This document shows, piece after piece, positions 46,562 through 59,466 of a stretch of DNA of 64,000 nt. The translations under genes were made by a program, and so were the position numbers. The stretch is from an uncultured Sphingomonadales bacterium (GTDB lineage Bacteria > Pseudomonadota > Alphaproteobacteria > Sphingomonadales > Rhodothalassiaceae), in NCBI GenBank assembly GCA_947499155.1, contig CANMND010000003.1:434001-498000 (forward strand), read 5' to 3'. How positions within the stretch are numbered: position 1 is the first letter of the stretch; the number at the start of each line of letters is the position of its first letter. Under the pieces are notes generated by a model. The model did not search any database, was not told where the DNA came from, and was given only the letters and a program-made list of their open reading frames with translations.

Positions 46562-46637
46562 GGGGCCGTAGCTCAGTTGGGAGAGCGCAGCAATCGCACT
46601 GCTGAGGTCAGGGGTTCGATTCCCCTCGGCTCCACCA
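46562..46637 (+). tRNA. tRNA-Ala(CGC), CCA encoded
   Basis: GGGGCCGTAGCTCAGTTGGGAGAGCGCAGCAATCGCACTGCTGAGGTCAGGGGTTCGATTCCCCTCGGCTCCACCA; anticodon loop ATCGCAC. Confidence 0.93.
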
Positions 46638-46862
46638 TTATCGCGTTGGCGATAATGGTGTCTCCTTGGGTTTGTTTGGTTTCCGAAAAGCGGACGATGC
46701 CCGCTTTCGCTCCGGGTGCTCCACCAGTATCGCAGGTGCGATAATGGGTCTCCTCGGATTTATTCGTTTTCCGAAAAGCGGACGATGCCCGCTTTCGCTC
46801 CGGGTGCTCCACCATTCTCGCAGATGCGATATTGGTGCCCCCTCGGGTTTATATGTTTTCGA
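46629..46862 (+). repeat. 88-89 bp tandem repeat (two full units plus a partial third), each starting with the tRNA-Ala 3' end GCTCCACCA
   Basis: Unit starts at 46629, 46718 and 46806. TTTCCGAAAAGCGGACGATGCCCGCTTTCGCTCCGGGTGCTCCACCA is identical at 46680-46726 and 46768-46814. Units contain hairpins such as CCATTATCGC-gttg-GCGATAATGG. Confidence 0.9.
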
Positions 46863-47529
46863 TGGCGTAGGAGGGGACCGGGGGGTGGCTTAGCCGGTAG
46901 GGGACGATGATGGAACGGGTTCCCAGTCTTAAGACGATTCCGGCCCTTTCCAGTGTTTCCATGCTTTCCCGGTCAAGATCGGCAGTTCCAATATGGGGGC
47001 GTCCGTCCGCGAGGCGCAGGAATGTGGTAAGTGCATCCTCTCCGCTTATGACAAATTTGTGGTTCTTGCCGGGAATCCGACGGTCAATCACGATTGCAAA
47101 GTCCGGTCCCTTTTTCCAGAAAAATTGCCCGAATGAAAATGGCTGGGGCCGTGACAACAGGTCGTTGTCGGGAGATGAGCTCGTGTCTGGTGGCGTCAGG
47201 TGGCAAAGATGGGGTAAAACATGCTCAGGGACGTCGCCAAGGCGCCAGTCAACGCGGAGGCCAAGACGGGTCGCATCTCGCAGCATGCAAATGATTGCCA
47301 GAAATTCCGCATTGCTGAGTGCATTTTCACCATCAAGCGAAACGTCTGTGTCGAGTATCAGTTTCCAGATACCCTGAGTGCGCAGACTTTTCATCTGTGC
47401 AAAGGTCATGGCCACCACATCTGCAGCTGTAAGCCGGACAGATTGCGACAGCTCCAGCGCTCGTGCATGCCCCAGGCGATCCAGAATGCCGTTTTTACGA
47501 GTGGTCTGGGAGGATAAGTTATTTGTCAT
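46849..47529 (-). CDS. Uncharacterised protein coupled to the cobalamin-type RiPP radical SAM enzyme
   Basis: 226 aa; overlaps the upstream radical SAM gene by 1 nt (TGATG). No family assigned with confidence. Confidence 0.75.
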   Translation of the reverse strand: MTNNLSSQTTRKNGILDRLGHARALELSQSVRLTAADVVAMTFAQMKSLRTQGIWKLILDTDVSLDGENALSNAEFLAIICMLRDATRLGLRVDWRLGDVPEHVLPHLCHLTPPDTSSSPDNDLLSRPQPFSFGQFFWKKGPDFAIVIDRRIPGKNHKFVISGEDALTTFLRLADGRPHIGTADLDRESMETLERAGIVLRLGTRSIIVPYRLSHPPVPSYAIENI

Positions 47530-49436
47530 CAGGCAGCCATCCGTTTTTGAGTGCGCGTCTCCAGGGTGGCGAGCGCCAGATAGTGTCCATCATCACAGAA
47601 AACCAGTCCGTTCTCTTCAAAATAGGAGAGAATCTGCAAGACGCTCTCTTTGGTCATGTCAGGGTCATGGCCGGACAGGGCATCGAGAAGGGCGTCAGTG
47701 CCAAGCGGCTGGTCAAGACAGCGATAAGCGTAGGCGTGGATGCTGTCAGGCAGGCCATAGGCCCTGTGTTCCCACCCTGCCCGTTCATCACAAATAACGG
47801 TCTCGCCGTCGATTTCCGTTTGGGTGAGGCGACTGCCCGCCTGATAGTGCTTGTGCCAGCTATCGATAAGGTCTCTCAACTCTGTAAGCTTTTTATCCGA
47901 TATGCCCTGATTATCCGTATCGAACAGATAGGCGATATCCGTCAGGGCTTCATCAGGAAGGTCGTAGATAAGGTCGTAATGGCTGGCATGACGGCGATTC
48001 TGAAAACCCAAAGACAGATCGTCAAAATAAGGACTGAAGCGTTCCAGGGAAATCCTCAAGGCCGTGCGAGGCGGCTGCAAATGGGACATGGCAGAGGCAT
48101 AGCGCTCGAAACTCAGAAAGTCATCGCTGGTCTCGCCGGGAAAGCCTGTGAGAAGATACCATTGAACTGTCAGGTCAAAGGCTTCACAATCCCGCAGCAA
48201 GGCGACGTTGCGTGGCCCTGATACACCCTTGCGCATGAGACCCAGAAGCCGTGTGGAAACGGATTCGATGCCGGGCTGGATGATATTGACACCCGCATCC
48301 CGCAAAAGGGCAAGCTGATCGCGTTTCAGGTTCGCCTTCACTTCGTAATGAAGTCTTATGTCCCAGTCGCGTTCGGCCAAGCGGGGCAGGAACGAGCGGA
48401 AATACTCCATACTGATGATATTATCTGCCATGACCACATCAAGAACTTGGTGTTTGGCCACCAAATCAATCAGCTCTTCGAGCATGGTGTCGGCATCTTT
48501 GTTTCGAAACGCCATGCCAGCACCATTAAGTCCGCAGAATGTGCAGTGATGCTTTTGGCCCCACCAGCAGCCTCGCGATGATTCCATCACAAGCTCAGGT
48601 CTGATGATGTCGGATCTGGATGATTTTTCCACCTGATCGAAATACTCGTCATAATCAGGGCGAACCAGCTCGGATCCTGGTGGCAAGGGGGCGGGCGGAT
48701 TATAGCCGCTCATGCCATTTTCACGCCAACACAGGCCAGGAATGTCTGTCACTGGACGGTTGCCGGCCAGATAGTCGAGGAAAGCCGGAAAAGTGCTCTC
48801 ACCTTCTCCTGAAGCCACATAATCGAGAAAATCATATGATTTATGAAGGGCCGTTCCTTGCACCCCATCGCAATTGGCACCGCCCATTATGATTTTTATC
48901 TGGGGTGATTTGTCCTTCAGGGCCTGGGCAAGGGCAAGACAGGCCACGTTTTGGGAAAAGACACTGGAGAGGCCGATAACGTCAAAGCCCATTTGTACGA
49001 TAGCGTCGGCTGCCTCATCGATGAAGCGTGGTGCGAGCCTGTGGGCGGTCATCAATTTCTCAGTCAGGTCGCCCCTGTCCCCCATAAGCTCGGCATAGCG
49101 ACTGCTCTGCCATTCATCGGTTTTATGGAGACTGGAAGAAAAAACAAAATCCCCGCCACCAATATCGAACAATTCTTCACTGATATCGGAATAATCAGAC
49201 GCAGTAAACGTCAGGTCCATATGTTCAGAGAGATATTCGAACCATTTGATATTGAGATAAAGCGTGCGGCAATTAACGGACGGATGCGCCTGTTTTGCCA
49301 TTTGTGCCAGAATACCGAGTCCCAAAGATGGACGATTCAGATTCTGCCACGGTACTGAAACAAGTAATATATTCAAATCTATACCACTTTCTTCAAGGTT
49401 CATGCTAATCAAGCGTGTGTATAGAGCCTTACGCAC
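47529..49436 (-). CDS. Cobalamin-binding radical SAM, RiPP maturation radical SAM C-methyltransferase-like (TIGR03975-type)
   Basis: 635 aa; N-terminal B12-binding-like region (ILLVSVPWQNLNRPSLGLGILAQMAKQA), MESSRGCWWGQKHHCTFCGLNGAGMAFRNKDADTMLEEL with the CxxxxxxCxxC arrangement of this family. Start uncertain (49436 or 49403). Confidence 0.9.
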   Translation of the reverse strand: MRKALYTRLISMNLEESGIDLNILLVSVPWQNLNRPSLGLGILAQMAKQAHPSVNCRTLYLNIKWFEYLSEHMDLTFTASDYSDISEELFDIGGGDFVFSSSLHKTDEWQSSRYAELMGDRGDLTEKLMTAHRLAPRFIDEAADAIVQMGFDVIGLSSVFSQNVACLALAQALKDKSPQIKIIMGGANCDGVQGTALHKSYDFLDYVASGEGESTFPAFLDYLAGNRPVTDIPGLCWRENGMSGYNPPAPLPPGSELVRPDYDEYFDQVEKSSRSDIIRPELVMESSRGCWWGQKHHCTFCGLNGAGMAFRNKDADTMLEELIDLVAKHQVLDVVMADNIISMEYFRSFLPRLAERDWDIRLHYEVKANLKRDQLALLRDAGVNIIQPGIESVSTRLLGLMRKGVSGPRNVALLRDCEAFDLTVQWYLLTGFPGETSDDFLSFERYASAMSHLQPPRTALRISLERFSPYFDDLSLGFQNRRHASHYDLIYDLPDEALTDIAYLFDTDNQGISDKKLTELRDLIDSWHKHYQAGSRLTQTEIDGETVICDERAGWEHRAYGLPDSIHAYAYRCLDQPLGTDALLDALSGHDPDMTKESVLQILSYFEENGLVFCDDGHYLALATLETRTQKRMAA

Positions 49437-49607
49437 GGCTTGGTTGCTGGTCGTTATTTTGATCCGGTTTACCTAAAGTTCCATATAGGCATTTGACCCC
49501 AGTCTTGCTTGAAGTGCAATCAAATATACTCGACATAGTAGATAAACTATGTTTTGGTTCAAGTAAGTGAAGGTGATTCTTGACTGACCGCCATTACAGG
49601 AGGGCGT

Positions 49608-50837
49608 GTGCGCGGGGACTTACTTGAGCAATTACAGGGCCAGGCCCTCGATATGGCAAACCATATCGCCCGATACCCCTTGGGTCCCGACAGGCATGGC
49701 TCATCTATTGCGAATCGTGCTGTGCTCGCCCTGAGAGAACACCCTCTCGCCTCGATGATCGATCCCGTGGCTGTCCTTGCTGCTTTGGCCGCGGATCCTG
49801 AGGCTGAGCGGAAGATGGCGGTACAAACCCCATCGAAATTCGCAGACTGTCAGCTTGTTCTGTTCTCTGATTCGACGATCAGTATTCAGCTTTTAGTCTG
49901 GATGAATGGCACAACAAGTATCCATGACCACAATTTCAATGGCGCCTTTCGCATGATTACCGGAAGGAGTCTTCATTGCAGCTATGATTTCCATGCAAGG
50001 CCCGGTGATGCAACCTGCGGAGTGGCTGCAGGCAGACTGGAGTTTGTCGATAGTGAGATCATCGGGGAGGGAGACGTTCGCCCAATTCATGCCGGGCAGT
50101 CTTTCATCCATGCGGCCTTTCATCTTGATGAGCCGTCAGTAACGCTGCTGGTGGCAAGCCCTGTTGGCGTCGAATCCAGTGGGCAGAACGAATATCGCGG
50201 CGGGAGACTGTCCGTTGACGAATCCGCCCTGCCGCTGATTGTGGCCCGCCAGGTTCAGGCGCTGCACATTCTTCACAAGATTGAGCCTGAGGCTTTTCTG
50301 CCACGGCTTATAGAGTGCATGGCGTCAGCAGATCTGGGCCGGAAATACTGGATCCTGCGTGCCATGGACCGGATTGTTTCCCGACTGCCATCAGCAGATC
50401 AAAATCGGTTACATGACCAAATTTCGCGCCAACATGATGGGCCACTTTTGCTGGATGTCCTGTTTCGCGAAAAGCTGACCTACAGGATTGTTTCCCTGCG
50501 CGAGACCATTCGCGATCCGATAACACGCTTTGTGCTGGGCCTTTTTGTAAATGTAAGAAATCCCGCACAATGGCCATCTCTTTTTCAACAATACGGCGCG
50601 CGCTCGATAGCCGATGCAAGCGCCTACAGCCAGGCGCTGGATAGAATTTTTGATGCCACGTTCTGGACGGGCATTTTCGCGGCAGACGAGGTGTCACAAC
50701 TGCGAGAATTTCTACGGGGTTTGACGGGAATGCCCGAAGGTGACGTGCATATCTCCGCAATCCTGCGTGACAATGCCGTCTATCAGACCCTGTTCCCAGA
50801 GCCGGTGCACTCACTTTATGAGGGGGCGGAACCATGA
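49608..50837 (+). CDS. Cysteine-dioxygenase-like cupin protein with about 200-aa C-terminal extension, in the RiPP locus
   Basis: 409 aa; GTTSIHDHNFNGAFRMITGRSLHCSYDF plus IHAGQSFIHAAFHLDEPSVTLLVASPV, matching the CDO pattern SIHDH...G / H...PAVSLHLYSPP. GTG start with AGGAGG upstream; overlaps the next gene by ATGA. Confidence 0.65.
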   Translation: MRGDLLEQLQGQALDMANHIARYPLGPDRHGSSIANRAVLALREHPLASMIDPVAVLAALAADPEAERKMAVQTPSKFADCQLVLFSDSTISIQLLVWMNGTTSIHDHNFNGAFRMITGRSLHCSYDFHARPGDATCGVAAGRLEFVDSEIIGEGDVRPIHAGQSFIHAAFHLDEPSVTLLVASPVGVESSGQNEYRGGRLSVDESALPLIVARQVQALHILHKIEPEAFLPRLIECMASADLGRKYWILRAMDRIVSRLPSADQNRLHDQISRQHDGPLLLDVLFREKLTYRIVSLRETIRDPITRFVLGLFVNVRNPAQWPSLFQQYGARSIADASAYSQALDRIFDATFWTGIFAADEVSQLREFLRGLTGMPEGDVHISAILRDNAVYQTLFPEPVHSLYEGAEP

Positions 50838-52021
50838 TTTTTGCTAATGTTATCAAGCCGACACATATCTGCAATCTGGCCTGTACTTATTGCTATAATG
50901 ATGATGTGCGCGATCCGATTATGAAGGACGGCGTACTGGCCAGGACTATTCAACAGACATTTGAATATGCTGCGAGCAGGCCGGTCTTCAAAAAAATTGA
51001 ATTCATCTGGCACGGCGGCGAACCGATGGTACCCGGCCTGGGATTTTATGAACGGGTCGTTGCCATGCAGGAGAGCCTTAAGGGCGATATTCCGTATCAG
51101 AACCTTATCCAGACGAACGGTATCCTTATCAATGACAAATGGCTTGAGTTCTTTAAGGAACACAAATTTGCTGTCAGCATCTCAATAGATGGCCCAAAAG
51201 CACTTCATGATGTCTATCGGTTGACGCATAAGGGTGAAGGGTCGTTTGACCGTGTGTTTCGAGCCATCAATATGGTCCGCGATGCAGGCCTTCCCATTGC
51301 AGTTTGCATGGTAATGAGCCGGGCGACCATTGATAAGTGCGAGGAACTGCTGGAGTTCTTTTCGGCCAATCGCCTGCATTTTGAAGTGATACCAATGACA
51401 CGGTCCGGCGCAGCCCGTGACAATTTTGCAGATTTGGGGCTGGATCCTGAAGAATACGGTCGTGCCTGGTGCAAGATGTATGATCTGTGGATGGACCTTT
51501 CTGGCGAAGACTATGTCCAGTGCGCAGATTTTATAAACAAGACCCGCTCGATTCTTTATGGAATGGGTATGGATTGCTTCGGGTTGGCCAATTGCTCACA
51601 CAGCAATGTGTCGACTGATCCTGTAGGCGATGTGTTTCCCTGCGCGACTTTGTCGGGCACCGATACTGTTTGCTACGGCAATATCGCAGAACGTGATTTT
51701 AGCGAAATTTTGTTATCACCAGCGGCACGGGACTTTCAGACTCGGGGCATCGATCCCGAATGTGCACGCTGTGATTGGCAGCATGTTTGTCATGGCGGCT
51801 GCGTATCCCGATCGTACAAGTTTCATGGGGATATTCACAAGCGGGACTACTACTGTCCCAGTCTTTACATGATGTACGAGCACGTGGCTACCCGGCTCAA
51901 GGAGCGGGGCATCGAGCCAGGTGCACAAAATCCGTTTCACAACACAAACGGTATTGACCCTGTAGTTTTTGAAAGACTGCACTCTTCTGCACGAACTGGC
52001 CCTATGTGTACGGCCGGATAA
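50834..52021 (+). CDS. Radical SAM/SPASM peptide-maturation enzyme
   Basis: 395 aa; KPTHICNLACTYCYNDD (CxxxCxxC), C-terminal Cys-rich SPASM region (CSHSNVSTDPVGDVFPCATLSGTDTVCYGNI...CARCDWQHVCHGGCVSRSY). Confidence 0.93.
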   Translation: MIFANVIKPTHICNLACTYCYNDDVRDPIMKDGVLARTIQQTFEYAASRPVFKKIEFIWHGGEPMVPGLGFYERVVAMQESLKGDIPYQNLIQTNGILINDKWLEFFKEHKFAVSISIDGPKALHDVYRLTHKGEGSFDRVFRAINMVRDAGLPIAVCMVMSRATIDKCEELLEFFSANRLHFEVIPMTRSGAARDNFADLGLDPEEYGRAWCKMYDLWMDLSGEDYVQCADFINKTRSILYGMGMDCFGLANCSHSNVSTDPVGDVFPCATLSGTDTVCYGNIAERDFSEILLSPAARDFQTRGIDPECARCDWQHVCHGGCVSRSYKFHGDIHKRDYYCPSLYMMYEHVATRLKERGIEPGAQNPFHNTNGIDPVVFERLHSSARTGPMCTAG

Positions 52022-52056
52022 TATCAACGTACAAACAACCAGAAAGGAAAACAGTA

Positions 52057-52260
52057 ATGGATAATAATAACATCACAAAATCTGATGTGAAAAAAGCAGT
52101 ATGGTCTGAAGCCCTGCTGGATTCATTCAGCCCGGAAATCAAAGAGACTCATACTCCTGGCGATATCATGGAGGAAGAAAGCAAAGACGGATCAGGCATT
52201 CGCTATTACGCAACAAATGGCGGAGGCTGGAGCGGCAATATCGCCAAAATCCGATTCTGA
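52057..52260 (+). CDS. Candidate RiPP precursor peptide, 67 aa, cysteine-free
   Basis: MDNNNITKSDVKKAVWSEALLDSFSPEIKETHTPGDIMEEESKDGSGIRYYATNGGGWSGNIAKIRF; AGAAAGGAAA upstream; between the rSAM and exporter genes; helical acidic leader and Gly/aromatic-rich tail. Confidence 0.8.
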   Translation: MDNNNITKSDVKKAVWSEALLDSFSPEIKETHTPGDIMEEESKDGSGIRYYATNGGGWSGNIAKIRF

Positions 52261-52267
52261 TGTGACA

Positions 52268-52309
52268 ATAGGCTACTGAACGCCGGACTTGACGGCATCT
52301 GAAGCCTAT
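52268..52309 (+). promoter_or_regulatory. Two-tier hairpin (possible attenuator or processing site) between precursor and exporter genes
   Basis: Outer stem ATAGGCT/AGCCTAT (52268-52274, 52303-52309) enclosing GCCG/CGGC; no U-tract. Confidence 0.4.
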
Positions 52310-52316
52310 AAAGGTT

Positions 52317-54719
52317 ATGGGGTGCCTTGTGTATATTGTATCTTACTTTAAAAGAAAAAAGATAACGGCACTTGGATTTATGCTCAGTTTGTTTTTGGGC
52401 ATGTTTTCTCTGGTCCTTGCTCTTCAGTATAGTCAGTATCAATTGACTTATGATGATTGGATCAGTGATTCGGGTCAGACCTTTGCCGTGCGCACCACCA
52501 TAACACCGCCGGGGGGAGAGCCAGTGCTTACAGCCAGCTCTCCCGTCGGCTTACCACAATGGCTCGACAATCAGCGATCAGAAGATTTTCAGGATCTGGC
52601 TTATTTTCGGCATCGTCCGGTCCATATCCTTCCCGATAATATTTTCATTGCCGAGCAGCTGACCGAGGTTTCTCCCGGCTTTCTTTCGGTCTTTAAACTG
52701 CAAGATGATGAACGCCCACTCATGGAAAATGAGGTTCTTTTGTCCCGTGCGGCCGCGATCCGGGCTTATGGTCGGCCCGATGTAACGGGGGAAGACTATG
52801 AAATTCCCAATATCGGGACTTATCAAGTGCGCGGCGTATTCGAGATGCCGCAAAAAAGTCATCTGAAATTCGATGTCCTCGTTGCGAGACCCGTTGAAAG
52901 CATGCAGGAAACACGGGAGCTGGGCGACTGGACCTCACTTGATGAATTCGTATATGTGCGGCTTGGCAAAAGTCGTGATGCAAAAACCGTTGAGAGAATC
53001 CTGAACGAGGCCCTGCCCGATTATCTCGGACCAATTGTCGTGCGTGGAACCAGTCTTGATGCGTCTGCAATCTGGGACATCAGCTTGACGCGGGTTGGAG
53101 ATATGAATTTTCTGCCGCCGATGCTGGGGCAGATGAAGGCACCGGCTCATGATTTCGAAATATACTTTGTCTTCTTCCTGATCGTATTTGTTTTTGTGAT
53201 CATGCTGTCCAATTTATTCAATCTTGCTTTTTTGAGTGTGGAAGACCGCGCTGTCGAATTCAGGATGCGCCAGCTACACGGGGAAACTCCCCTGCAGCAG
53301 GCCTCGATGCTGTTTTTGGAAATGTTGCTGCTCACACTTTTGATGCTCGCGGTCGCACTTTTGGCGGTTTACGCCGCAGGACCCTATTTCGAACAGGCCT
53401 GGTCCATGCCTAAAATCTGGACAATCGCCTTAACGGACCCTTCCTGGGCACGAACCATTGCCATCGGACTTGCGACAGCCCTGATTATTCCTCTGATACT
53501 TGTTCTGCAGACTTTTTATCCCGGCATTGTCCGCAAGAAAAACGAGGATGGCAAAAACGGAAGCGTTGCCCGCGGCGTTTTGCTGTTTATGCAGGTGTTT
53601 GCTGCAGGTCTTGTGGTTACAGCTACGATTGTGCTGTCACAGGAGTTGAATCGTCAGGTCTCTGTCAATCCCGGCTTTGATCCCAACAGCATGATGATGA
53701 TACGCGATGCCCAGTCCAACTCGGGCTTTACCGAGATGCTGGATGAAATCCGTGCCGCGCTTTTGGAGGCCGATGGCGTAACGGATGCAGTCTACAGCAA
53801 TTCAGTTCCCGGGCAGCCTTTCCCGTCGCGCACAATCGTTGCATCGGCAGACCGGCCCGATGGTCCGACGGCGATGAGCGCCTATCATTCCGTCTCGGCG
53901 ACCATGCTGGAACGCTTTGGGGCAAGCCTGCTTGCCGGACGTTTCTTTGATCCCGATCGGGCAGATGACCGGTTTGCTGATCATGAGGGCGTGCCAATAT
54001 CGGCAGAAGGTGCGGTTATCGTCAATCGTGCCCTTATTGAAGCCTTTGGCTTTGCGTCGGGACAAGATGCACTGGGCCAGCGGCTTGATCTGGGCGATGG
54101 ACGTATCGCCCGTATCATCGGTGTCATTGAAAACTGGCCTTATCAGGGTATCAACAGAGACATTCTTCCAACAGTGATGGTCGAAGATGTTCAGGCATTT
54201 GCCCATCTGTTTATATTCGGGCGCGATAATCTTCCTGCTATCCAGGATGCGCTGGGACAGACGGTTCCCACATTGAACGCTCATATGGAGCCGTTTGGAC
54301 CCTTTTGGACTCAGCAGTTTGTTACATTAAAGCGGGCGACAGAGCTGGGATTTTTCCTGTCGATTATTGTCATGTCTTTGGTGTTGGTGGGGCTTGTGTC
54401 CTATCTGGATTTCTTCATCAGGAAGCGAACCGTTGAACTGCTGATCCATCAATTGCATGGCGCAGGGCTTTCACAGCTTTTCGTGATCGCCGGGCGGGTT
54501 ATTCTGGTGGCTGTTGCCCTTGGATCGCTGGCCTCACTTGGCGTCTCATATTATCTTGTGCCTTATGCTGCAAAAAGCGGCTTTGCGGGGTCCGGCTTTG
54601 GGGCCATGCCGGTCATGTCCATAGCACTGATTGCTATAGTCATCCTTGGCATCGGCTGGGTGTCGGCTTTACGTATTCTTTTACGACGTGATCTGTATCA
54701 GGCCTTGAGGTCTGAGTGA
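52317..54719 (+). CDS. MacB/FtsX-type ABC transporter permease
   Basis: 800 aa; N-terminal TM, MacB-type periplasmic domain, FtsX-like TM blocks with RMRQLHGETPLQQASMLFLE and LIHQLHGAGLSQLFVIAGR. Confidence 0.9.
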   Translation: MGCLVYIVSYFKRKKITALGFMLSLFLGMFSLVLALQYSQYQLTYDDWISDSGQTFAVRTTITPPGGEPVLTASSPVGLPQWLDNQRSEDFQDLAYFRHRPVHILPDNIFIAEQLTEVSPGFLSVFKLQDDERPLMENEVLLSRAAAIRAYGRPDVTGEDYEIPNIGTYQVRGVFEMPQKSHLKFDVLVARPVESMQETRELGDWTSLDEFVYVRLGKSRDAKTVERILNEALPDYLGPIVVRGTSLDASAIWDISLTRVGDMNFLPPMLGQMKAPAHDFEIYFVFFLIVFVFVIMLSNLFNLAFLSVEDRAVEFRMRQLHGETPLQQASMLFLEMLLLTLLMLAVALLAVYAAGPYFEQAWSMPKIWTIALTDPSWARTIAIGLATALIIPLILVLQTFYPGIVRKKNEDGKNGSVARGVLLFMQVFAAGLVVTATIVLSQELNRQVSVNPGFDPNSMMMIRDAQSNSGFTEMLDEIRAALLEADGVTDAVYSNSVPGQPFPSRTIVASADRPDGPTAMSAYHSVSATMLERFGASLLAGRFFDPDRADDRFADHEGVPISAEGAVIVNRALIEAFGFASGQDALGQRLDLGDGRIARIIGVIENWPYQGINRDILPTVMVEDVQAFAHLFIFGRDNLPAIQDALGQTVPTLNAHMEPFGPFWTQQFVTLKRATELGFFLSIIVMSLVLVGLVSYLDFFIRKRTVELLIHQLHGAGLSQLFVIAGRVILVAVALGSLASLGVSYYLVPYAAKSGFAGSGFGAMPVMSIALIAIVILGIGWVSALRILLRRDLYQALRSE

Positions 54720-54720
54720 T

Positions 54721-56157
54721 ATGCAAGGGGTGCAAGCTGATGAAGATGTCTCATTGCAGCATCTGTTTTCAGGATTTGCCAAAGGCCGTGATTTTGTAAT
54801 TGCCAATATATTCATCGGGTTTGAAGTCCTGTTAAAAGCGGTGGAGATCTGGCTCTATTACGTTTTTGGCCAACTTCTTGCCGATGATATGAGCGGCATT
54901 GTCCTGCTCGCCTTCGCTATTTTGGGGGCGGCACTTATAAGAATTGTGATCTCGGGTACAATTTCTCTATTTGGAGAATATTGGCGCGTTTCAATCGTAA
55001 AGTCCGTCCTTGACCAGGGTGTACATGTGTTGCGTGATCGTCCGGATGTTTATCCGGAACGGACAATGCGTCATGAACGGCCCACGGCCATTGCTTCAAG
55101 CAGCTATCTCACCTCAGAAAACCTGGTCAGTCTTTATCTAAGTCTGGTTCGCTCCGGTTTTGGGCTTGCGTCCTATATAGTTGCCTTTGCACTTCTTTTT
55201 GGTGCGGGCCTCAGTCTGGCTTTTCTTGCGGGGCTGGCGTTCAGCTTCATGCTCAATCGAAGGGTTGAGCCCTATCTTGCAAAACGCGCCAGTCGCACAG
55301 AAACGGCGCGGATCAAGGTGACATCCCTTTATGATACGGCCTGGGACAATCTGGTTATCGGCAACAGCCTGTGGACGGGGAAATGGATCCGGCGCCTTGA
55401 TGATACGTACAGGCGCTATCGCTTTCTCAACAATATGATGTGTCGGCGCATCTATGTCATTCAGCTCATACATATTTTCGTGTCTTACGGGCTGACGGTT
55501 ACGGTCTTTGTCTGGCTGTTGTTGTCCAGTAGGCCTGACATGGCTCTGACATTAAGTCTGGTGGTGGTGGTTCCTAAAATTATTCAGGGCCTGCAACAGC
55601 AATCCGACTTTATCGCTCATATCAGCGTCCTTGGCGTGCTTAAGGGCCAGTTGGAGATTATCCGGGATGCCTTAAGTCCACTTAAGCGGCAGGATCTGTC
55701 TTTAAGAATGGATGAGGGAAAGATCAAAATCTTGTCCGGTCAGGATGGCAAGGAAGGGCTGGCCGCCTTTTTTGAGCGACTGGATGAGAAAGGTCAGCTC
55801 AGTCAGGTTGGGCAGAGGATGACGATCCGGGGTGCAAATGGCAGCGGCAAGACCAGTCTCCTGCTAATGTTGAAGGAAAGGTTCGGTTCGCTGAGCTTTT
55901 ATCTGCCAGCCGGGATGAAAACGACGATGAGCGGGTCTGATATTCGCCACTCTACTGGTGAATATGTCATGAAAACTTTGCATGAGGCGCTGACCGCCTC
56001 CAATCGCCCACGTTTTTTCCTGTTGGATGAGTGGGATGCAAATCTGGATGGCAATAATGCCCGCGAGATTGATCGCCTGCTGGATCTCGCATGTTTGGAC
56101 GGAACAACGATTATCGAAGTGCGTCATCGTAACAGGGATGACAGGGTAAATGAGTAA
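54721..56157 (+). CDS. ABC exporter-like TMD-NBD protein with a shortened, non-canonical NBD
   Basis: 478 aa; about six TM segments, Walker A RGANGSGKTSLL, Walker B/D-loop RFFLLDEWDANLDGNN, only about 57 residues between them and no LSGGQ. Confidence 0.75.
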   Translation: MQGVQADEDVSLQHLFSGFAKGRDFVIANIFIGFEVLLKAVEIWLYYVFGQLLADDMSGIVLLAFAILGAALIRIVISGTISLFGEYWRVSIVKSVLDQGVHVLRDRPDVYPERTMRHERPTAIASSSYLTSENLVSLYLSLVRSGFGLASYIVAFALLFGAGLSLAFLAGLAFSFMLNRRVEPYLAKRASRTETARIKVTSLYDTAWDNLVIGNSLWTGKWIRRLDDTYRRYRFLNNMMCRRIYVIQLIHIFVSYGLTVTVFVWLLLSSRPDMALTLSLVVVVPKIIQGLQQQSDFIAHISVLGVLKGQLEIIRDALSPLKRQDLSLRMDEGKIKILSGQDGKEGLAAFFERLDEKGQLSQVGQRMTIRGANGSGKTSLLLMLKERFGSLSFYLPAGMKTTMSGSDIRHSTGEYVMKTLHEALTASNRPRFFLLDEWDANLDGNNAREIDRLLDLACLDGTTIIEVRHRNRDDRVNE

Positions 56158-57409
56158 TATGGATATTGTCATTCCGGCCCATAAGGCCAACAAACGGCGT
56201 GCGCTATGGCTGGTGCTGGCCATATTGGCTGTCATCGCTGTGCTGTTCTTTGTGGTTAGCGGCTTTGGAGCCGGGCGCGTATTACAGACGACACAGGATA
56301 ATGTGACCCTGCACTCTGTCACTGACGGCGAATTTATTGAGTCTGTTTCTGTTCTTGCTATGGTGGAACCGGTGCGATCCGTCGTTCTCAGTACCGCTGT
56401 GGGCGGGCGACTGGAGCCTGGTGATTTTCTTTCAGGCAGCCATGTGGAACAAGGCGATGAGATTGCGCGTCTCACCAATGCGGCACTGGAGCTTGAGGTT
56501 CTGACCAGGGCAACCGAGGTCGCCCAACAGATATCCAATCTCTATAATTTTGAACTGGCTTATCAGAATCGTGATCTTGATCTTCAAAACCAGAAGATTG
56601 CAGTGGAATCAGATCTGGCAAAGGCTCAATTGCGGTTGGAACGGGTAGAAAGTCTTGTGGCCAAGGGGTTTTCCACTCAGGAAGCCTATGATAATGCCAG
56701 AATAGACGTCAGGGAAAAAAAGACACTGCGTGACACCATTGCGGCGGCCGTTGTTGATTTTCAGAGCCTGAAAGCATCCCAGTCTTCGGACTTCAAAGAG
56801 ACGACAGACAAGCTGACGGCGGGATTGGCGCTGGCAAGAAAGCGCCAGGATGATCTGGTAATCCGTGCCCCCATCAGTGGCATTTTGTCGGATTTTGATG
56901 CGATTCCGGGAACACAGATCCAGGCCGGGGATGTCATCGGCCGTATCAAGTCCGTTGACCGGATGATCCTGCGTGCAAATCCGAGTGAATTCTATCTCAA
57001 CAAGATTGATTCAGAAAGCAAGGCGACGGCTCTTGTGGGTGACAGGTCTTATCCACTGCGCCTCGTCAAGCTTTCACCAACCGTTGCCAACAAAACATTT
57101 GAGGTCGATTTTGAACTGTTGGACAGCGGTCAGACCGTGAGGCTGGGGCAGACAGTCCCGATCAGGATCCAGCTGTCCTCGCCGCGACAGGCGATACAGG
57201 TTCCGGCCAGTCCGTTCTGGAATGGGGTGGGGCCTGAGGGGGTGTTTGTTTATGACCCTGAGACCAAACGCGCTGTTCGCCGCCAGGTAACGCTTGGCAG
57301 CAGGAACGACACAGCAATTGAAATCCGCCATGGCCTGAATGACGGGGACATTGTCGTCGGCCTGAATTATGAGGAGATGAGGGGATATGAGCGAATCGAA
57401 ATCGAATAA
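56150..57409 (+). CDS. HlyD-family periplasmic adaptor
   Basis: 419 aa; N-terminal TM, barrel-sandwich and coiled-coil (LAKAQLRLERVESLVAKGFSTQEAYDNARIDVREKKTLRDTI), VIRAPISGILSDFDAIPGTQIQAGDVIGRI. Confidence 0.93.
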   Translation: MSNMDIVIPAHKANKRRALWLVLAILAVIAVLFFVVSGFGAGRVLQTTQDNVTLHSVTDGEFIESVSVLAMVEPVRSVVLSTAVGGRLEPGDFLSGSHVEQGDEIARLTNAALELEVLTRATEVAQQISNLYNFELAYQNRDLDLQNQKIAVESDLAKAQLRLERVESLVAKGFSTQEAYDNARIDVREKKTLRDTIAAAVVDFQSLKASQSSDFKETTDKLTAGLALARKRQDDLVIRAPISGILSDFDAIPGTQIQAGDVIGRIKSVDRMILRANPSEFYLNKIDSESKATALVGDRSYPLRLVKLSPTVANKTFEVDFELLDSGQTVRLGQTVPIRIQLSSPRQAIQVPASPFWNGVGPEGVFVYDPETKRAVRRQVTLGSRNDTAIEIRHGLNDGDIVVGLNYEEMRGYERIEIE

Positions 57410-58085
57410 GCTGGCACAGCTTATTGATGTTGGCTGTGTTTTCAGGTCGGGACAGGTCGAAACCCATGCCTTGCGCGATATCAATCTTGAGATCGAGACC
57501 GGTGACTATTTGGCAATAACGGGTGAATCTGGTGCGGGGAAGTCGACGCTTTTGTCCATACTGGGAATGATTGCGACCCCGACATCAGGGGACTATGTTC
57601 TTGCCGGGCAATCTGTGAAAGGCTTGACACGAAGCCAGATTCAGCAGGTCAGAGCCGAGAATATCGGCTTTATATTTCAGGCCTTTCACCTGATTGACCA
57701 CATTACCGTTGAGGCCAATGTTCAGATAGGCCTGAAATATCTGCCGTCAGGGTCAGAGTCTTACAAAAAGCGCGTTGCCGACGTGTTGGAGAAAGTTGGC
57801 CTCTCACACCGCATGTCTCATTATCCCAGTCAGTTGTCCGGTGGCCAAAGACAGCGCGTAGCTATTGCGCGGGCACTTGTTGGGGACCCCAAAATTATTC
57901 TGGCCGATGAACCAACAGGAAATCTGGATTCAGTAACCGGAGAGACGTTGCTTGATCTTTTTGATGTGCTTCACAAGGAGGGGCGGACATTGGTTGTGGT
58001 GACTCATTCCGAGAGCCTGGCGGCGCGGGCGGCTCGTTCTATGGTTATACGTGATGGCAGACTGGTTGGAGAGGGACATGGTTGA
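57387..58085 (+). CDS. ABC transporter ATP-binding protein (MacB/LolD-like)
   Basis: 232 aa; [52 protein letters not shown]. Confidence 0.96.
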
Positions 58086-59466
58086 TCACGCATCCAAGAC
58101 AGAGTTCGAAATCCTCACATTGGGGCATGCCTCATTGATATTCAGGGTCGGGCCACTTGTTATTTATATGGACCCGATCTTTGACGATCCTCATCATGAT
58201 GGCCTGTTTGAGATCTATCCCAATCGCAGTATTGATTCCAATTTGCTGCCAACTCCAACCCATATTCTGATTTCACACAGACATTTTGATCATTTCGATA
58301 TCAATACCCTTGCCCGTCTTGACCGGAGCCTGCCTGTTATTATTCCGGCCGACCCCATGATGAGGGATGCACTTAAAAGACTGGGCTTTAGCGATATCAC
58401 CGAGGTCAGTGACTATGAGCGCCTCACTCTTCAGTCAGTAGAGCTGTATTTTACACCCTCAGAGCTGAAGCTTCCCGAACATGGTGTGGTCATCTCTTTT
58501 AATGGGGTGAGCGTCTGGAATCAGGTCGATACGATGTTATCGGACGAGGATCTGGCGCGGGTTGTGGATCAGTTTGGCTCGTTTGACATGGTTATCGCCC
58601 CGTGGCAGCCCTTGCTGGAAGCGGTAGTCCAGCATAATCAGCCGCTGGTTTTTCCAATAGCTGAATATTGCCGGTTTTTGGTCAAGGCCGCCCGTTGCAA
58701 AGGCCAGCTCACCGTACCCGGTGCGAACGGCTTTAGATATCGCAAGCCATATGACTGGCAGAACACATTGTGTTTTCCGGCGACGCGGGAGCGGTTCATG
58801 CAAGACCTTGAGCACCTGATCGCCTTTGACCCATCACGTCAGGTTGCCCCGAACGATTCTGGCGATCACTGGGTGTTTGAAAATGGACGGTTCCACAAGC
58901 TTTCAGAACAAGTTTCAGGGGTTACGCGTCACCATGACTGGCATTACGAGGATCTGGTGTTCCAGCCCGGCCTCACTGCGATAGTCGGGTCAAAACAGGT
59001 GAGGCAGTCTGGACGTGGTTCGGAGTCTCTTTCGCAAATTCTGGAGCGGCTGGAAGATCTGGTTAACAAGAAAATGACGCAAGACCCCGAGGCATTTAAG
59101 GAACTCAAAGCCTGGGATGTTGTCTATCAGATAACCGTATGCGACGGTGAGGAAACGTGCAGCTTTCATATTCCGTTTGCAGCTGATACGCCTCAGGCGG
59201 TGCCCGGAACGAGCCCCTATGCCACCATGACCACGACAGTGAACGCGTGGGCCCTTCTTGACCTTCTGGATCACCGGACATCATGGGACCATCTGGTTCA
59301 CAGTGGAGCCTATCGAACCCATCAGACGGTGTTTCGTCTTGCACCCGATGGAATCCACGCGCCGGGGGCAGAGGCCATTGCAGACCCCTTATGGGCGATT
59401 GCAAAGATTGAGGATAATCTTATAGCAAAAATCGATCGCGAGCTTGCAGCTGTTGACAGACTTTGA
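58078..59466 (+). CDS. MBL-fold metal-dependent hydrolase
   Basis: 462 aa from ATG overlapping the ABC ATPase stop; GHASLIFRVGPLVIYMDPIF, ISHRHFDHFDI (HxHxDH). Confidence 0.88.
   Translation: MVDHASKTEFEILTLGHASLIFRVGPLVIYMDPIFDDPHHDGLFEIYPNRSIDSNLLPTPTHILISHRHFDHFDINTLARLDRSLPVIIPADPMMRDALKRLGFSDITEVSDYERLTLQSVELYFTPSELKLPEHGVVISFNGVSVWNQVDTMLSDEDLARVVDQFGSFDMVIAPWQPLLEAVVQHNQPLVFPIAEYCRFLVKAARCKGQLTVPGANGFRYRKPYDWQNTLCFPATRERFMQDLEHLIAFDPSRQVAPNDSGDHWVFENGRFHKLSEQVSGVTRHHDWHYEDLVFQPGLTAIVGSKQVRQSGRGSESLSQILERLEDLVNKKMTQDPEAFKELKAWDVVYQITVCDGEETCSFHIPFAADTPQAVPGTSPYATMTTTVNAWALLDLLDHRTSWDHLVHSGAYRTHQTVFRLAPDGIHAPGAEAIADPLWAIAKIEDNLIAKIDRELAAVDRL

Follow-up and report, generated by a model that had tools for sequence, protein, structure and literature searches.

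Gene content and genomic setting of the locus

The window, i.e. the whole stretch of 64,000 nucleotides that was analysed, contains between positions 46849 and 59466 two divergently oriented groups of genes around a shared promoter region, with the following features:

46849..47529, minus strand: DUF5825 partner protein of the cobalamin radical SAM enzyme (PF19142, 69 bits, cut-off 25)
47529..49436, minus strand: cobalamin-dependent radical SAM enzyme of the RiPP C-methyltransferase family TIGR03975 (559.6 bits, cut-off 281.85), with B12-binding domain
49437..49607, no strand: divergent promoter region with an inverted repeat, possible operator
49608..50837, plus strand: CDO-like cupin whose C-terminal half is helical, a predicted peptide oxidase (IHDH at residue 105, FIHAAFH at 166)
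50834..52021, plus strand: DynA-type radical SAM/SPASM maturase with a CNLACTYC motif, predicted to form a W1-N4 cyclophane (NF041298, 564.9 bits)
52057..52260, plus strand: RiPP precursor of 67 amino acids with ribosome-binding site, predicted core WSGNIAKIRF, leader ending in GGG (NF041295, 21.5 bits)
52317..54719, plus strand: MacB/FtsX-type (ADOP, DarB-like) exporter permease (TIGR03434, 117 bits; NF038008, 80 bits)
54721..56157, plus strand: TMD-NBD ABC-type protein whose NBD is degenerate, probably serving in auxiliary export or immunity (relatives on Moraxellaceae plasmids)
56150..57409, plus strand: HlyD/DarC-like periplasmic adaptor (best model NF038010, 186 bits, cut-off 450)
57387..58085, plus strand: MacB/LolD/DarD-like ATPase (lowest E-value on NF038007, 219 bits, cut-off 375)
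58078..59466 (alternative start 58051), plus strand: CmlA-like protein of the MBL fold, predicted to act as an oxygenase rather than as a hydrolase (PF12706 over cut-off; CmlA, E 1.5e-8)

An ORF check of the window found all ten reported reading frames open at these coordinates. The two minus-strand genes overlap by one base, and the start/stop overlaps seen in the original prediction on the plus strand are indeed there, measuring 4 to 35 nt at four junctions, while the other gaps span 1 to about 60 bases. For the precursor, the longest possible frame starts at GTG 52006 and encodes 84 amino acids, but ATG 52057, which is preceded by the ribosome-binding site AGAAAGGA, is the better start. Likewise, ATG 58078, located behind GGAGAGGGAC, is the more likely start of the MBL-fold gene compared to GTG 58051. 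The divergent pair and the cupin-DynA operon are separated by 171 bp of shared promoter region, in which a perfect inverted repeat (ACATAGT-N6-ACTATGT, 49533-49552), present in a single copy in the window, forms a possible regulator site.

The exporter had been predicted to resemble that of darobactin, and this likeness holds at the level of best or near-best models, all scoring below their cut-offs. DarC (NF038010) is the best model for the HlyD protein, and for the ATPase the E-value is lowest with DarD, closely followed by MacB and LolD. The permease is matched best by the general ADOP permease model, with DarB (cut-off 700) second, both below cut-off. Since none of the three reaches its equivalog cut-off, we regard them as DarBCD-like in their working and do not file them as DarBCD. 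In the NBD of the TMD-NBD protein the degenerate motifs read STG(E/Q) and DEWDANLD, and the protein ends near VRH; one of its plasmid-borne relatives adjoins a gene for a HEXXH putative peptide-modification protein.

The host is, as far as can be read from its sequence, an alphaproteobacterium, with an LptB 72% identical to that of Azospirillum. The block from 46849 to 59466 has a G+C content of approximately 50-54%, compared to 55-57% alongside, which is somewhat below most of the window. Four genomes from the family of the host have conserved rnd and lptC, but the stretch fetched upstream of these two genes contains no cluster genes. Together with the lower G+C content, this makes it most likely that the block is an acquired insert. 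Just outside its left edge lies a tRNA-Ala (cgc) at 46562-46637; Rfam places these positions barely above the tmRNA threshold (47.1 compared to 47), probably as a tRNA look-alike. Target-site repeats derived from this tRNA-Ala were sought at the right edge of the cluster and none were found.

The DynA maturase and its precursor

The radical SAM/SPASM enzyme exceeds the equivalog cut-off (450 bits) of the NCBIfam model for DynA, the dynobactin maturase, by a wide margin, so the new type put forward in the original prediction does not hold for the macrocyclase, which is of a known kind. Assignment as DarE was rejected (137.5 bits, cut-off 650). DynA proteins are rare: scans of 385 genomes of the class, 301 of the order, 399 of the phylum and 331 of gammaproteobacterial families, the last without positive control, revealed DynA in two genomes only, namely the host (G000) and G006, which belongs to another genus of the same family. 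Collections of genome contigs, viral contigs and plasmids yielded none. The G006 enzyme scores 598 bits and shares 56% identity with that of the window.

In G006 (L023:14386-15947, G006:C1), the dynA-precursor pair is located between the genes for CTP synthase and gatB, and dynA is followed directly by an ORF with the C-terminal sequence WSGNIYRYSF, compared to WSGNIAKIRF for the precursor in the window. These two cores are identical at 6 out of 10 positions, while unrelated short ORFs reach at most 5 out of 10 (approximately 5,700 short-ORF C-termini), which argues that the match is not due to chance. Dynobactin A itself is WNSNVHSYRF, in which a C-C link joins Trp1 to Asn4 and a C-N link joins His6 to Tyr8 (PMC13067283). 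All three sequences have W1, N4 and F10 in common, and the window core additionally shares R9 with dynobactin A. The 67-amino-acid ORF is thus a real precursor, with a matching core behind the G006 DynA and a ribosome-binding site of its own, and the RiPP locus that had been proposed around it is borne out. Against a dynobactin reading counts that the precursor remains short of the cut-off of the dynobactin precursor model NF041295 (40 bits; E 2e-4), to which it aligns over 47 of 48 positions. Moreover, Ala6 and Ile8 replace His6 and Tyr8, so that the second dynobactin ring cannot form and a single Trp-Asn ring is predicted; as this removes half of the dynobactin scaffold, binding to BamA may be lost.

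A conserved short ORF was thus present in the one homologous locus found. The expectation that the genes stay together in relatives holds only in part: G006 keeps maturase and precursor, but no cupin, exporter, cobalamin radical SAM/DUF5825 pair or MBL-fold gene was found in the surroundings of its dynA. Therefore the ten genes do not always travel together. Maturase and precursor constitute the minimal unit and the remaining genes are accessory, and an action of the latter on the window peptide does not have the support of conservation.

Accessory enzymes

The presence of two radical SAM enzymes, as originally put forward, is confirmed by scores over the cut-offs for both DynA and the cobalamin enzyme, the latter adjoined by a DUF5825 protein that likewise exceeds its cut-off. 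A homologous pair is reported to C-methylate clavusporins (PMC12257519). Compared by identity and neighbourhood only, the main forks of the tree remaining unresolved, the cobalamin enzyme has its closest named relatives in Streptomyces (41-42% identity), where DUF5825 is encoded directly downstream; in two relative loci lacking DUF5825 the radical SAM identity amounts to 33-36%. DUF5825 occurs in 1 of 367 alphaproteobacterial genomes, i.e. in two copies in the host, and is absent from the 366 others. Given its adjacency alone, the DynA precursor is a putative substrate of the pair.

Just upstream of Streptomyces cobalamin radical SAM/DUF5825 pairs, short peptides ending in SITITVPIRNAEDSDTES and VTVGVSVSF (L031:6645-6821 and L032:6455-6664) look like unannotated precursors, while a comparison of short ORFs among the Streptomyces loci gave mostly noise. 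The second pair of the host (G000:C5:111069-114478), 46% identical to that of the window, adjoins genes for an MFS transporter, SDRs and an AurF/R2-like oxidase, with no DynA. The same contig carries a second apparent RiPP locus (G000:C5:90739-104538) encoding a TIGR04463-like SPASM radical SAM enzyme (below cut-off), a short ORF ending in RCNGRCDGKVALA, a daptide-type M50-like metalloprotease, three arginase-family proteins, two JmjC/Cupin_8 proteins and FtsX permeases. Repeats translating as VFPARAGMNR and SPHARG (G000:C5:117344-117942; L053:17345-17943) suggest a CRISPR array with the type I-E kind of repeat.

For the cupin, the CDO-like character first noted is upheld by its His pattern. 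Its weak PDB match to 3MPDO/CDO has an E-value of 0.6, which is at chance level; no Pfam or NCBIfam model matched and no relatives were found in plasmids or in 150 related genomes. A Pseudanabaena cupin located beside an MBL relative was rejected as a relative, as it is a JmjC protein of another family. Because the precursor contains no Cys, thiol dioxygenation of the precursor by the cupin is unlikely, and it possibly performs another oxidation.

In the di-iron monooxygenase CmlA, the ligand set consists of HxHxDH, a Glu in place of the third His, a bridging Asp and a final His. The best PDB match of the MBL-fold protein is this monooxygenase, and in an alignment of three proteins it and its cyanobacterial relatives keep HRHxDH, a Glu in the place of the third MBL His, and the Asp; the final metal His was sought in these three proteins and not found, so the protein may be inactive. 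Since the third metal His is a Glu and CmlA is the best match, the earlier label of hydrolase is doubtful, and a role as peptide oxygenase is slightly favoured. In Nostoc, the gene of the relative is flanked by SagB and an NHLP exporter gene, and in Pseudanabaena LanM and Nif11 genes are nearby; this recurrence of the subfamily in cyanobacterial plasmid RiPP loci suggests a so far unrecognised family of RiPP tailoring proteins. AlphaFold models of the cupin and the MBL-fold protein made without alignments (pLDDT 41 and 37, respectively) were unusable and were discarded.

Proposed pathway, alternative readings and known systems

We consider it probable that this alphaproteobacterial locus is a RiPP cluster of the dynobactin type, working along the following lines. 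DynA would join the β-carbon of Asn4 to the indole of Trp1 by radical chemistry, giving the W1-N4 cyclophane of WSGNIAKIRF, and the cobalamin radical SAM enzyme with its DUF5825 partner would methylate unactivated carbons, perhaps of Ile5 or Ile8. Oxidation or hydroxylation of the peptide may fall to the CDO-like cupin and the CmlA-like MBL-fold protein. The export complex would move the peptide out, general proteases cutting the leader after GGG. The C-terminal strand of the product would then block the BamA lateral gate of competing Gram-negative bacteria; inhibition of BamA is a prediction drawn from the conservation of the core. More tentatively, and with somewhat less than even confidence, the product could be a first decorated dynobactin in which, next to the Trp-Asn cyclophane and with the second ring lost, C-methyl groups and oxidations by the cupin and the CmlA-like protein offer an alternative way of rigidifying the BamA-binding strand. 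Changes conferring dynobactin resistance have been reported at G429 and G807 of E. coli BamA. The single BamA of the host has Gly at both corresponding positions, which does not account for self-protection and counts against a dynobactin reading. A BamA paralogue as immunity determinant was rejected: among the two Omp85 proteins of the host genome no extra BamA was evident.

The DynA-precursor core could stand while the divergent cobalamin radical SAM/DUF5825 pair is a chance neighbour acting on another peptide or on a non-peptide substrate. The pair lies on the strand opposite to the DynA operon, the same genome has its second pair away from any DynA, and none is found beside the DynA of G006. 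On the other hand, the pair has only the 171 bp promoter region between itself and the cupin-DynA operon, in common with the latter, no other conserved short ORF was recognised beside it, and the whole block is missing upstream of rnd in relatives. We hold such independence to be unlikely, though to be reckoned with. It is rather improbable that the peptide belongs to another triceptide or cyclophane RiPP class and serves another purpose than inhibiting BamA, e.g. metal binding or signaling. Core residues 6 and 8 unlike those of dynobactin, a cupin without relatives in the plasmids and 150 related genomes and exporter scores under the darobactin cut-offs speak for such a class, but the maturase scores above the equivalog threshold for DynA, and the core retains Trp1, Asn4 and the RF at its C-terminus. 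That the cluster is decayed or silent and the peptide no longer made, as might be read from the missing last His of the MBL-fold protein and the degenerate NBD, seems very improbable, since these departures recur in relatives from other phyla or families and are therefore family traits rather than decay; moreover, ten frames are open, with overlaps and ribosome-binding sites intact.

Dynobactin-like peptides block outer-membrane assembly in Gram-negative bacteria, and the few leads of natural origin against these organisms include dynobactin and darobactin. The producers named in the literature consulted are mainly gammaproteobacteria (Photorhabdus, Yersinia). If our preferred reading as a dynobactin-type cluster is true, an alphaproteobacterial maturase of the DynA clade with a new core and extra enzymes would show which scaffold positions are kept in evolution (W1, N4, F10), and in what other ways the strand can be tailored.

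Measured against reviews of dynobactin and darobactin and against NCBIfam, the kind of maturase is known, the peptide sequence is new, and the extra tailoring enzymes are additions to what these sources give for dynobactin and darobactin clusters. With dynobactin A of Photorhabdus australis the locus shares an over-threshold maturase and a ten-residue C-terminal core containing W1, N4, R9 and F10, but the core lacks His6 and Tyr8 and the leader has diverged; compared to the dynobactin cluster described in the same sources, the cobalamin radical SAM/DUF5825 pair, the cupin, the TMD-NBD protein and the MBL-fold protein are additions. The darobactin cluster darABCDE likewise combines a short precursor, a SPASM radical SAM enzyme and MacB/HlyD/ATPase-like export, and because it too has no dedicated leader peptidase (PMC9055067), the lack of one here is not unusual. 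In contrast to darobactin, the radical SAM enzyme of the window is far under the DarE cut-off and the core contains no WxW, WxF or WNWxKxF; without the WNWxKxF core no Trp-O-Trp ether is expected.

The clavusporin pair is homologous to that of the window and has the same gene order (the radical SAM enzyme is 41% identical to the Streptomyces clavuligerus plasmid enzyme), but the window pair adjoins a cyclophane RiPP operon and the precursor core is unrelated. From CmlA, with which it shares the MBL fold, HxHxDH and a Glu near the third MBL His, the MBL-fold protein differs by the absence of the N-terminal domain, by another C-terminal half and by the final metal His, which was not found. The biphenomycin clusters (pbs, bip) also combine a B12-dependent radical SAM enzyme with a cupin-type hydroxylase around a three-residue ring, and their YHxYxY relatives also carry DUF5825; biphenomycin, however, uses an MNIO, an arginase and a B12-dependent radical SAM crosslinker, whereas the window cluster has neither MNIO nor arginase, and the two cupins belong to different families.
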